The notes under the pieces were generated by a model, which ran no database searches, was not told the origin of the DNA, and saw only the letters and a program-made list of their open reading frames with translations. Positions 18,711-22,661 of a stretch of DNA of 64,000 bases are shown in pieces. Both the position numbers and the translations under genes were made by a program. The DNA lies in the NCBI RefSeq assembly GCF_009688945.1, contig NZ_AP021874.1, positions 1,612,001-1,676,000 on the forward strand, written 5' to 3'. The DNA is from Desulfosarcina alkanivorans (GTDB taxonomy: Bacteria; Desulfobacterota; Desulfobacteria; Desulfobacterales; Desulfosarcinaceae). Positions within the stretch are counted from its first letter, which is position 1, and the number at the start of each line of letters is the position of its first letter.

Positions 18711-19415
18711 CTACAGGAGTTTAAGCCGTTTTAGCAGCAGCCTGGCTTCATCAGGGTTCAAGTGCCGCCAGGAGCCTTTGGGCAGTCGTCCCAGCGTCAG
18801 GCCGGCCACTCGGATTCGGTGCAGTTGAACCACCCGGTTGCCCATTTTTTGGACCATCCTGCGGATCTGTCGATTCCTGCCTTCCATCAGGACGATCCGG
18901 AAACGACGGCCTGAAATACGTTTCACAGCAGCAGGCCGGGTCATGACGCCGGAAAGCGGCAAGCCCCGTTCCATGTCAGCCAGGGCCTGATCGGCAATGG
19001 GCCATTGCACCGTTACGTCGTATTCTTTTTCGTGATCGAAGGACGGGTGCGAGAGGCGATGGTGAATGCGGCCGTCGTTGGTCAGCAACAACAGGCCGGT
19101 GGAGTCCTTGTCCAGCCGTCCCACCGGGAAAAGCCGCTGGGGCAGGTCCACCAGGTCCGTCACCACGGGTTCGCCGCGATGCCTGCAACTGGACACCACC
19201 CCTTCAGGCTTGTTGAGCATGATATAGACGAGCTGCTCCGGGATGTCCACGGGCACCCCCCTGAGATGCACCCTGTCGGTTTCGGGGTCCACCTTGGCGC
19301 CGAGCGTGGTCACCACCCTCCCGTTGACGGTCACCTCACCGGCAAGGATGTGGGCCTCCCCTTTGCGCCGGGAGCATGCCCCGGCTGCGGAAAGAAATTT
19401 TTGCAGGCGAATCAT
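18711..19415 (-). CDS. 16S/23S rRNA pseudouridine synthase, RsuA/RluB family
   Basis: The 234-residue enzyme has an S4 RNA-binding domain at the start (MIRLQKFLSAAGACSRRKGE) and the pseudouridine synthase domain with the catalytic aspartate in FPVGRLDKDSTGLLLLTNDG, followed by EGRNRQIRRM. It converts a uridine in rRNA to pseudouridine; length and motifs fit RluB/RluE/RsuA, and which site it modifies cannot be told. The ATG at 19415 matches the family start; a longer frame to 19493 would overlap argJ. It begins 28 bp after the argJ stop. Confidence 0.92.
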   Translation of the reverse strand: MIRLQKFLSAAGACSRRKGEAHILAGEVTVNGRVVTTLGAKVDPETDRVHLRGVPVDIPEQLVYIMLNKPEGVVSSCRHRGEPVVTDLVDLPQRLFPVGRLDKDSTGLLLLTNDGRIHHRLSHPSFDHEKEYDVTVQWPIADQALADMERGLPLSGVMTRPAAVKRISGRRFRIVLMEGRNRQIRRMVQKMGNRVVQLHRIRVAGLTLGRLPKGSWRHLNPDEARLLLKRLKLL

Positions 19416-19443
19416 TGGCACGGCTCTGTGTCGCGGAGGTATC

Positions 19444-20628
19444 TCATGACCGATAATCGGCATTGATGTTGACATAATCCAGGCTGAAGTCACAGGTGAG
19501 CATCGTGGCCGTCCCCGCCCCCAGGTTCAGATCCAGGGTGACTGAAAATTCCGGTTTTTTCAGCGCACGGGTGGCTTTTTCTTCAGCACCGGGGCCACAA
19601 CCCGTCCCGTTTTCAACCATCTGTATATCGTCGAAGAAAAGGTCCAGCCTGTCCGGATCCAGCATGACGCCGGCACGTCCGGCCGCCGCGATGATGCGCC
19701 CCCAGTTGGCGTCCTCTCCGAAAAAGGCCGTCTTCACCAGGGGTGAGTGGGCGATGGTGTCGGCAACGGCCCGGGCATCGCGGTCCGAATGGGCCCCGCG
19801 AACCGTCAGATCGACCACCTTGGTCACCCCCTCGCCGTCCTTGACCATCTGCCGGGCCAGGTCCATGCACAGATCGTCCAGGAGGCGCTGAAAGGCCGCT
19901 CGATCGGCGTCTGATTCAATTTTCGCTCCGGAGCCGCCGTTGGCCATCAGAATCACCGTGTCGTTGGTGCTCGTATCGCCGTCGATGGTAATCCGGTTGA
20001 AGGACCCGTTGACGGATTGTCCCAGTGAGGCCTGAAGATCAGAGACGGCGATTTCGGCATCGGTGCAGGCAAAGCAAAGCATGGTGGCCATATCCGGGCG
20101 GATCATCCCGGCACCTTTGGCCACGGCGACGATGCGATAGGATCTGCCGCCGGCCGAGCCCTCACGGGAGGCTGTTTTCGGCCGGGTGTCGGTAGTCATG
20201 ATGGCGCGGGCCAGATCGGGCACGCCATTTTCATCCAACCGGCCGGCCAGGGCGGGCACCGCCGCGTCCACCAGATCGATGGGAAAAGGGACACCAATGA
20301 CGCCGGTGGAAGCCACCAGTACCTGCGCTTCGGGCAGATGCAACGCCCGCGCGACCGCAGCGGCCATGGCCCGGGCAGCGTCCTGACCCTGCGGGCCATT
20401 GGCGCAGTTGGCATTGCCCGCATTGGCGATCAATGCCCGGGCGACCCCGGATTTAACCCTCTCACGGTCCAGCGTCACCGGTGCCGCCTGGACGCGGTTT
20501 TTCGTGAACACCGCCGCCACCCGCGCCGGTCGGTCGGAGACCAGCAGGCCCAGATCGAGGTCACCGTTTTTTTTGATTCCGGCGGCCAGGCCGCAGGCAG
20601 AAAACCCCTTACAGGTCAATGGAGCCAT
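19444..20628 (-). CDS. argJ: Bifunctional glutamate N-acetyltransferase / amino-acid acetyltransferase ArgJ
   Basis: The 394-residue enzyme of arginine synthesis transfers acetyl from N-acetylornithine to glutamate. The autocleavage site with the nucleophilic threonine is in ARAIMTTDTRPK. The oxyanion-side motif is in ASTGVIGVPFPID, and the C-terminal chain has FFGEDANWGRIIAAAGRAG. The ATG at 20628 has GAAAGGA at good distance; an ATG two codons earlier is less likely. It heads the argJ-rsuA-rSAM run, divergent from the selenoprotein gene. Confidence 0.94.
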   Translation of the reverse strand: MAPLTCKGFSACGLAAGIKKNGDLDLGLLVSDRPARVAAVFTKNRVQAAPVTLDRERVKSGVARALIANAGNANCANGPQGQDAARAMAAAVARALHLPEAQVLVASTGVIGVPFPIDLVDAAVPALAGRLDENGVPDLARAIMTTDTRPKTASREGSAGGRSYRIVAVAKGAGMIRPDMATMLCFACTDAEIAVSDLQASLGQSVNGSFNRITIDGDTSTNDTVILMANGGSGAKIESDADRAAFQRLLDDLCMDLARQMVKDGEGVTKVVDLTVRGAHSDRDARAVADTIAHSPLVKTAFFGEDANWGRIIAAAGRAGVMLDPDRLDLFFDDIQMVENGTGCGPGAEEKATRALKKPEFSVTLDLNLGAGTATMLTCDFSLDYVNINADYRS

Positions 20629-20782
20629 TCCCATTCCTTTCGTTGAACCGGTCCCGCCGGTAGCCAATCATCCCCCCTTGCAAACCGCTGCCATATGACA
20701 TAAAAAGCGCCTGTTTGCAAATTCATCCCGGTCCCGCAGCGCCTGTGGCCGCTGGACCCGTTCCGCCAACAAGGAGTAGCTA

Positions 20783-20965
20783 ATGGAAGAGCCCAAACTG
20801 CGTTGTGATGGTTGCAGCACCCCCCTGACATTGAAGCGGACATGACGATCGGTAGTCTTCCGCTGCACGGGATGCGGCGCCGAGTATCCCCTTTCCAGAT
20901 TCGTCCATCTCATGGACGACGCCATGGAGCAGCAGTTGGCCGACTGGCGCTGTGACAGGATATAG
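20783..20965 (+). CDS. Predicted dual-CXXC small selenoprotein (in-frame UGA = Sec21)
   Basis: AAGGAG precedes an ATG at 20783. The frame reads MEEPKLRCDGCSTPLTLKRT, then TGA (20843-20845), then RSVVFRCTGCGAEYPLSRF and ends LADWRCDRI with TAG at 20963-20965. With UGA read as selenocysteine it is a 60-residue protein: CXXC at 8-11, Sec at 21, CXXC at 28-31, helical tail. The frame is kept exactly on both sides of the UGA. A SECIS-like hairpin follows at the expected distance. From memory, NCBI names a 'dual CXXC motif small (seleno)protein' family in Desulfobacterota with the same layout and a Cys in place of Sec in some members. It is probably a small metal-binding or redox protein. It ends 6 bp before the AEC transporter gene. 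A nonsense-mutated Cys gene is the alternative. Confidence 0.75.
20861..20879 (+). promoter_or_regulatory. SECIS-like hairpin downstream of UGA
   Basis: CGCTGCA (20861-20867) pairs with TGCGGCG (20873-20879): seven pairs including one U-G, around a CGGGA loop. The stem starts 15 nt after the UGA, and the loop guanines lie about 23-26 nt from it. Bacterial SECIS elements sit within the coding region at this distance with guanines in a small apical loop. The fold was done by eye. Confidence 0.6.
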
Positions 20966-20971
20966 CCTGCG

Positions 20972-21889
20972 ATGATAATTCTCAACAACCTATTTCCGGT
21001 TTTTGCGCTGATCGGTCTGGGCACCCTTCTGAAATACAGTCACTTTATCGGGGAAAGTTTTCTCAAGGCATCGGACCGGCTGGTCTATTTCATTTTTTTC
21101 CCGGTCCTGCTCTTCTGGAAAATCGGCTCAGCACCTCCGGTGGACAGCAGTGCCACCGACCTGATCGTCGCCGCCATCTGCGCCGTCTGCACGGTCTACC
21201 TGATCAGTGCCATCTGCCTGAAATTGTTCAAGGTGCCGAGGTTTGCGGCCGGATCCTTTTCGCAGAGCTGCTACCGGTTCAACACCTACGCCGGAATGGC
21301 CGTGTCCATGAATGCCCTGGGTGAAGCGGGGGCGTCGAGATTCGGCATCCTCATCGGGTTCATCATTCCGATCATCAACGTGCTGGCCGTATCGACCCTG
21401 ATCTGGTACTCCGGCCAGACCATCAATATGCGTGAAAGGCTGCGAATCACCCTCCGTGCCCTGGTTTCCAACCCGCTGATCATCGGCTGCCTGACAGGCA
21501 TGGCCTATTCCCAAACGGTCGGCGAGTTCCCGGTTTTCCTGGACAACACCTTTCGCCTGGCAGCCGTGGTGGCCCTGCCACTGGCCCTGCTCTCCGTTGG
21601 CGGAACCTTGACCCTGAAAAATCTCAAGGCCCACCTGGGGCATGCATTTTTAGGATCTGCAATTAAAATACTGGTGCTGCCGATCTCGGGATGGTTGTTT
21701 CTCAATGCCGTCGGCGCCTCGACCCTGTCTTTTCAAGTGGGGATGCTCTTTTTCGCCCTGCCCGCCTCCCCGGCCATCATCGTGCTCTCTTCACAGCTCA
21801 ACAGTGACACCGAATTCGCATCCGCCGCCATCGTCCTGTCCACCCTGCTCTCTTTCTTCTCATTAAGTGCCGTGCTGATGACGTTCTGA
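20972..21889 (+). CDS. AEC family transporter (auxin efflux carrier-like permease)
   Basis: The 305-residue inner-membrane protein has about ten hydrophobic segments and the paired five-helix layout of the AEC family, from MIILNNLFPVFALIGLGTLL to the C-terminal VLSTLLSFFSLSAVLMTF. Bacterial members export or exchange small organic acids; the substrate is not known. Its ATG is 6 bp after the selenoprotein stop, with AGGA inside that gene's last codons, so the two are probably co-translated. Confidence 0.88.
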   Translation: MIILNNLFPVFALIGLGTLLKYSHFIGESFLKASDRLVYFIFFPVLLFWKIGSAPPVDSSATDLIVAAICAVCTVYLISAICLKLFKVPRFAAGSFSQSCYRFNTYAGMAVSMNALGEAGASRFGILIGFIIPIINVLAVSTLIWYSGQTINMRERLRITLRALVSNPLIIGCLTGMAYSQTVGEFPVFLDNTFRLAAVVALPLALLSVGGTLTLKNLKAHLGHAFLGSAIKILVLPISGWLFLNAVGASTLSFQVGMLFFALPASPAIIVLSSQLNSDTEFASAAIVLSTLLSFFSLSAVLMTF

Positions 21890-21908: not shown

Positions 21909-22661
21909 ATGGACGACGCCACAGCGGAAACATTCAAACTGACCCTCGAATACGACGGTTCAGGGTTTCATGGCTGGCAGCGGCAGAAAAAAGACCGCAC
22001 GGTGCAGGAAACCATCGAAAAGGCCCTGGCGGTCATGACCCGGGAAACGACCCCGCTCATCGGTTCCGGCCGCACCGATGCCGGCGTCCACGCCCTGGCC
22101 CAGACCGCCAGCTTCAGGACCAGCGCGGGCCTGAATGCCGATGTGTTTTTCAATGGCCTCAACAGCCTGCTGCCCGGGGATGTGGTGGTCCTTTCATGTG
22201 AAAAGATGCCCGATCGGTTCCACGCCCGCTTTGACGTCCGATCCAAACGCTATCGCTACCATATCCTCAACCGGCCCACGGCACCGGCCATCGGCCGGCA
22301 GTTCGTCTGGCACATCCGCAAGCCGCTGGACGCGACGGCGATGAAACAAGCGGCCGGCATCCTGCTCGGCACCCACGATTTCAAGGCCTTCGAAGGTGCA
22401 GGCAGCCCCAGGGCCCACACTGTTCGCAGCGTCACCGATTCAACCCTAAAAATTACCGGCGGCGGCAACCTGGCCTATGATATCGCGGCCAACGGGTTCC
22501 TGCGTTTCATGGTGAGAAATATCGTGGGTACGCTGGTTGAAGTGGGATTGGGCAAATTTACGATTCAGGATGTCGCCGACATCCTGAAGTCGAAAGACCG
22601 GTCACGTGCCGGGGCCACGGCACCGCCCCAGGGTCTGTTTTTAACCGAAGTGGTGTATTGA
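21909..22661 (+). CDS. truA: tRNA pseudouridine(38-40) synthase TruA
   Basis: The 250-residue enzyme makes pseudouridine at tRNA positions 38-40 in the anticodon arm. The catalytic aspartate lies in GSGRTDAGVHALAQTASF. KLTLEYDGSGFHGWQRQ and a C-terminal FLRFMVRNIVGTLVEVG are typical of TruA. AGGAGGAG precedes the ATG, 19 bp after the AEC transporter stop, so it is probably the third gene of that operon. Confidence 0.95.
   Translation: MDDATAETFKLTLEYDGSGFHGWQRQKKDRTVQETIEKALAVMTRETTPLIGSGRTDAGVHALAQTASFRTSAGLNADVFFNGLNSLLPGDVVVLSCEKMPDRFHARFDVRSKRYRYHILNRPTAPAIGRQFVWHIRKPLDATAMKQAAGILLGTHDFKAFEGAGSPRAHTVRSVTDSTLKITGGGNLAYDIAANGFLRFMVRNIVGTLVEVGLGKFTIQDVADILKSKDRSRAGATAPPQGLFLTEVVY

Follow-up and report, generated by a model that had tools for sequence, protein, structure and literature searches.

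A 60-residue protein encoded in a 64,000-nt stretch of the Desulfosarcina alkanivorans genome (hereafter the window; positions 1612001-1676000 of a 7.32-Mb genome in one contig) very probably belongs to the dual-CxxC family NF041197 (OS_HP3), with an in-frame UGA at codon 21 that is decoded as selenocysteine (Sec). A preliminary description of this DNA had proposed a probable selenoprotein gene, and that reading is backed by a full Sec machinery in the genome and by the pattern of TGA and Cys at codon 21 among relatives. The gene cannot be called new, since the family is already in print and a curated annotation model, NF041197, exists for it. The analysis makes modest additions to the description of the family: a predicted zinc ribbon, a strongly conserved C-terminal tail and a frequent neighbourhood of argJ, rluB, an AEC-type transporter and truA.

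The readthrough frame is as first described, running from an AAGGAG and an ATG through a single in-frame TGA, its sole internal stop, to a TAG (Table 1), and the two half-frames are as short as had been said (20 and 39 codons). The translation reads MEEPKLRCDGCSTPLTLKRT-U-RSVVFRCTGCGAEYPLSRFVHLMDDAMEQQLADWRCDRI, with CxxC motifs at residues 8-11 and 28-31. The NCBIfam model NF041197.2 (CxxC_Se_CxxC) matched the window protein at 77.2 bits (E 8e-22; curated cut-off 40), with its 53 positions covered in full, and a profile scan of the gene as a TGA-interrupted frame gave 67.5 bits (cut-off 40). The window protein has the trait of that model, a pair of CxxC motifs flanking Sec or Cys, and the label initially chosen for it, a dual-CXXC small (seleno)protein, turned out to be NCBIfam's own name for the family, 'dual CXXC motif small (seleno)protein'. 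Searches of Pfam profiles with the window protein returned sub-cut-off matches alone, mostly to zinc fingers, with no family reaching its cut-off; a PDB sequence search gave a single match, to another protein (E 0.33), and a tblastn search of plasmids gave none.

Table 1 Features of the selenoprotein gene and its neighbours in the window
Feature	Positions	Strand	Remarks
rluB-like gene, S4 and pseudouridine synthase domains	18711..19493	-	PF00849, PF01479
argJ, divergent neighbour	19444..20667	-	PF01960, 481 bits
Shine-Dalgarno-like AAGGAG	20771..20776	+	6 nt ahead of the ATG at 20783; read from sequence
CxxC_Se_CxxC selenoprotein gene (NF041197 / OS_HP3)	20783..20965	+	60 residues, then TAG (20963-20965)
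First CxxC knuckle (C8, C11)	20804..20815	+	kept in 126/126 full-length rows
In-frame TGA, codon 21, Sec reading	20843..20845	+	TGA in 146/150 order rows, window copy counted
Bacterial SECIS hairpin	20861..20879	+	7-bp stem, loop CGGGA, UGA-to-loop 22 nt
Second CxxC knuckle (C28, C31), overlapping the SECIS	20864..20875	+	kept in 126/126 full-length rows
Conserved C-terminal tail C-D-R-I	20951..20962	+	R59 126/126, D/N58 126/126, C57 108/126
AEC-type membrane transporter gene	20972..21889	+	PF03547; 6 nt past the selenoprotein stop
truA, tRNA pseudouridine synthase	21909..22661	+	PF01416

Of 291 order genomes sampled, 187 contain the family (173 above the NF041197 cut-off), as do 112 of 395 sampled from the phylum (88 above it); 14 control genomes gave no match. 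For the order we compared 150 rows (151 loci minus two duplicates, L008 and L009, plus a second copy in L085), comprising the window copy, a homologue from a Desulfosarcina metagenome-assembled genome (L007) and the listed matches that had loci or were fetched, with a second match in genome G135 and weaker unlisted ones left out. Codon 21 is TGA in 146 of these rows, a Cys codon in three (L013, L016 and L019) and TGG in one (L032). Among 60 phylum loci, a non-random set of the 20 best matches, 20 second matches most of which score below the cut-off, and 20 hand-picked ones, TGA occupies the position in 33 and Cys in 27, with no other codon. Both sets contain Cys-bearing relatives of the kind named in the preliminary description. 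An ordinary sense codon other than Cys had been named as counter-evidence; all 60 phylum loci, and all order rows but L032 (149 of 150), have TGA or Cys.

Terminal stops are themselves TGA in 61 of the 150 order rows (three rows end before any stop), showing that a short gene of this family can use UGA both as Sec codon and as stop. In the metagenome-derived homologue (L007:3001-3033), the ATG with which its close relative L008 begins corresponds to ATA; the start may be non-standard or changed, or the sequence may be in error. The window's genome also encodes two small CxxC/CxxC proteins scoring below the cut-off (L056 and L057; G000:C1:925618-925707 and 5483406-5483492), with neither TGA nor Cys at the Sec position.

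Downstream of the UGA, the hairpin picked out in the preliminary description (7 bp, loop CGGGA, 15-nt spacer after the UGA) appears in the predicted fold, its arms lying at 20861-20867 and 20873-20879 with one G-T wobble and its loop at 20868-20872. According to the available part of a 2026 review (PMC13188914), bacterial SECIS elements have a loop of 3-9 nt, a stem of 4-16 bp, a G in the first two loop positions, a UGA-to-loop distance of 16-37 nt and an energy of <= -7.5 kcal/mol. Checked by hand, the window hairpin falls within these constraints (5-nt loop with its first G in second place, 7 bp, 22 nt), with a folding energy of -9.9 kcal/mol over 27 nt and -12.9 kcal/mol over 43 nt. Against dinucleotide shuffles the hairpin's own stability does not exceed chance (z 0.39), a fold as good is reached by 28% of 200 synonymous shuffles of the window copy, and Rfam gave no match for the element. 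We take the hairpin to be real because of a family-wide signal, not because of the window copy's own energy.

This signal emerged when the rows were compared with synonymous shuffles: the 146 Sec rows of the order had a mean z of -1.80, and 67 of them reached <= 0.05. The three Cys rows of the order gave z values of -0.81, -0.60 and -1.96, one of them (L019) being individually significant (0.04), and the TGG row gave 0.24. Codon choice within the stem is likewise skewed, Cys-28 being encoded by TGC in 145 of 146 Sec rows (204 of 292 for the Cys codons of the first CxxC) and Arg-29 by AGG in 96 of 109, against a background of ~11% AGG in flanking frames (2637/23717 Arg codons) that is rough and includes some antisense frames. 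Order rows and phylum loci were also compared together, leaving out the TGG row and 17 TGA rows of the GxU type and keeping one sub-cut-off Cys row (L211). Among 162 Sec rows the 5-bp upper stem was complete in 130 (incomplete in 32) and the loop G present in 160; among 30 Cys rows the figures were 6 and 15. The Cys rows do not count as independent events, because they come from few lineages and differ in the amino acid at position 29. At the RNA level, it is the Sec forms that conserve the hairpin, whereas the Cys forms mostly do not.

The genome was also searched for the Sec machinery, as had been advised from the outset, and all of selA (612.5 bits; cut-off 267.9), selB (372.1 bits; cut-off 242.25), selD (372.3 bits; cut-off 125) and tRNA-Sec (75.4 bits; gathering score 47) were found. 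The selD match (G000:C1:4927117-4928043; L181) has an internal TGA and, judging from its sequence, looks like a selenoprotein gene itself. Across the order, selA was detected in 272 of 291 genomes and in 180 of the 187 that carry the family; with so high a base rate, which the family-positive genomes barely exceed, this co-occurrence is uninformative by itself. The seven family-positive genomes of the order that lack a selA match at E 1e-40 are all split into about 300 or more contigs each; selB exceeds its cut-off in four of them, is partial at a contig end in G259, is represented by a weaker match only in G278 and is without a match in G159. We infer Sec decoding from the conservation described above and from the presence of the machinery genes in the genome.

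At the protein level, conservation was counted on the 126 full-length rows among the 150. All 126 keep C8, C11, C28, C31 and R59, with D or N at position 58 and L, I or V at position 60; some rows outside the full-length set terminate in F. C57 is missing from 18 of the 126 rows, on which account its role as an obligatory Sec partner was rejected. Ten of these 18 rows have a Cys at position 27 and four at position 54, and C27 also occurs in 11 of the 108 rows that have C57. A structure model of moderate quality, built from four sequences (pLDDT 75.8, pTM 0.54), comprises strands at residues 14-20 and 24-28, followed by two helices. Knuckles joined by a beta hairpin are a zinc-ribbon trait, and the model places two strands between the CxxC motifs, though its fold matches are weak. 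The strands flank residue 21, which would therefore place Sec-21 at the hairpin turn. The top PDB matches in Foldseek were the zinc-finger protein ZifS (8yoz) and chain I of eukaryotic RNA polymerases (best E 0.078, none reaching E 0.001). We take these chains to be Rpb9-type zinc-ribbon subunits. On this model, the protein may be a zinc ribbon whose hairpin turn carries Sec.

In the window, the gene lies between a rluB-like gene and argJ on the reverse strand and an AEC-type transporter gene and truA on the forward strand; rluB and AEC-type are names that we presume for the products concerned. The same genes recur elsewhere. The family gene has truA nearby in 70 of the 150 order rows (in 69 cases same-strand and downstream), a divergent argJ upstream in 62, rluB in 44 (43 upstream) and the AEC-type transporter in 36 (35 downstream), with at least one of the four in 101 rows; these are minimum counts, since many of the flanks are short. 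Every member of the argJ, rluB, transporter and truA clusters matches the corresponding protein encoded in the window at E <= 1e-5. Of the 133 rows whose downstream flank reaches 1500 nt or more, 66 have truA, and of the 131 with an upstream flank of 1400 nt or more, 58 have argJ, so that about half of the sufficiently long flanks are without truA, and likewise without argJ. A common ancestry of the region, and not a common function, may explain the linkage.

Toward a working model, SelB and Sec-tRNA would decode UGA-21 as Sec, steered by the SECIS inside the second CxxC. In the 60-residue product, a predicted zinc ribbon, C8, C11, C28 and C31 would bind a metal ion, and Sec-21 would sit at the beta-hairpin turn, away from the metal end. 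There its reactive selenol could act on a partner by redox or metal-ligand chemistry, and the partner would be held partly through the conserved C-terminal tail. That the protein functions as such a zinc ribbon with a selenol at its tip is a tentative proposal, based on the model, to which we give a little less than even weight. Somewhat less probable is that Sec, its decoding accepted, acts as a metal ligand and not as a redox centre, in a zinc ribbon where it tunes or recruits a soft metal. The invariance of all four knuckle cysteines and the want of an invariant fifth Cys to serve as resolving thiol would suit this arrangement, whereas the predicted secondary structure would put Sec at the turn opposite the knuckles, and a Cys at 27 or 54 in 14 of the 18 rows that lack C57 hints at a resolving thiol that moves. 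The hint is weakened because C27 also accompanies C57 in 11 of 108 rows and because the rows are related. A more specific version of the selenol zinc ribbon would have it docked by its tail on an RNA-metabolism partner, as a regulator or repair factor of an RNA-modifying or transcribing machine and no ordinary thiol oxidoreductase; we proposed such a partner because of the recurrent place of the gene near truA and rluB, and consider it improbable.

Readings that dispense with Sec fare worse still. UGA might be read through without Sec insertion, for instance by near-cognate Trp or Cys, and the L032 row could be cited to this effect, having TGG (Trp) at codon 21 and yet keeping the hairpin sequence TGC-AGG-TCA-TGC. 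However, the first CxxC of L032 is disrupted too, and this may be a decaying or mis-sequenced copy; wherever else a sense codon occupies the position it encodes Cys (three order rows and 27 phylum loci), and the hairpin fits the constraints on bacterial SECIS elements. Nor is UGA generally reassigned, as can be told from the 61 order rows that terminate in it. Readthrough of this kind is thus very unlikely. Equally remote is a true stop, under which an earlier Cys or Arg codon would have suffered a nonsense mutation, leaving a pseudogene or a 20-residue peptide: the window hairpin is by itself not significant, but 146 of 150 order rows share the TGA at this codon, the protein is conserved on both sides of it, conservation after it extends to the RNA level and the full Sec machinery is present.

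With Sec decoding as the favoured reading, the case illustrates that a selenoprotein gene with both half-frames below 40 codons can be recovered by reading raw sequence. In the accessible part of a 2025 paper (PMC12013277), OS_HP3 of Desulfosarcina widdelii is given as the one known selenoprotein that the predictor deep-Sep missed in the genomes tested there; a family reportedly missed in one related genome was recovered here from sequence. The family is common, with 187 of the 291 order genomes sampled carrying it, and its conserved tail, predicted Sec position and recurrent neighbours provide testable starting points on function.

As for earlier accounts, the available part of PMC13188914 enters the family as 'Dual CXXC motif small protein (hypothetical protein OS_HP3)', NF041197, with the motif RxU, and OS_HP3 is also tabulated in the consulted portion of a 2022 review (PMC9312934), both crediting it to Zhang and Gladyshev 2007. 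In the available text of these two reviews and of PMC12013277, OS_HP3 (NF041197) is listed as a hypothetical protein without an assigned function. Beyond these three papers, a literature search on the family's names listed two more, both on plants by title. The accessible part of PMC2398784 has OS_HP1 and OS_HP2, though OS_HP3 was not met there, and no title on the NF041197 family stood among the 10 listed of 26 matches in a literature search on selenoproteins with truA or zinc ribbons.

Many phylum genomes carry a second small TGA gene, of the type CxxC-U-CxxC with a GxU motif (17 of the loci L204-L223, that is, without L211, L216 and L220; e.g. L206, L213 and L219), which scores near the NF041197 cut-off and whose C-terminus differs from that of the RxU rows. 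Four GxU representatives with Cys in place of Sec scored 41.9-45.1 bits against NF041197 (cut-off 40). Treating the set as an undescribed sister family was dropped in view of these scores and of the filing of 'hypothetical protein DW' under NF041197: DW comes from the deep-Sep paper (PMC12013277) and figures as a GxU member of NF041197 in PMC13188914, in the available parts of both. The GxU rows are possibly this published DW, matched by motif alone. The names OS_HP3 and DW may overlap, because the available part of PMC9312934 gives DW's example, SMF39960.1, for OS_HP3. A Cys branch with a conserved IYD tail replacing C-[DN]-R-[LI] accounts for 14 of the 60 phylum loci (L195-L201, L203, L224-L229).

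Compared with known systems, the model of the window protein has a weak Foldseek likeness to ZifS and RNA polymerase chain I over 31-34 columns of the best-fitting chains, without a sequence match to either in the PDB search. DW falls under the same NCBIfam model and differs from the window protein in its motif, GxU as opposed to RxU. With NF041197/OS_HP3, the window protein shares both CxxC motifs, the Sec position, the RxU motif and the host group; with no difference of substance seen, it is an ordinary member of that family.
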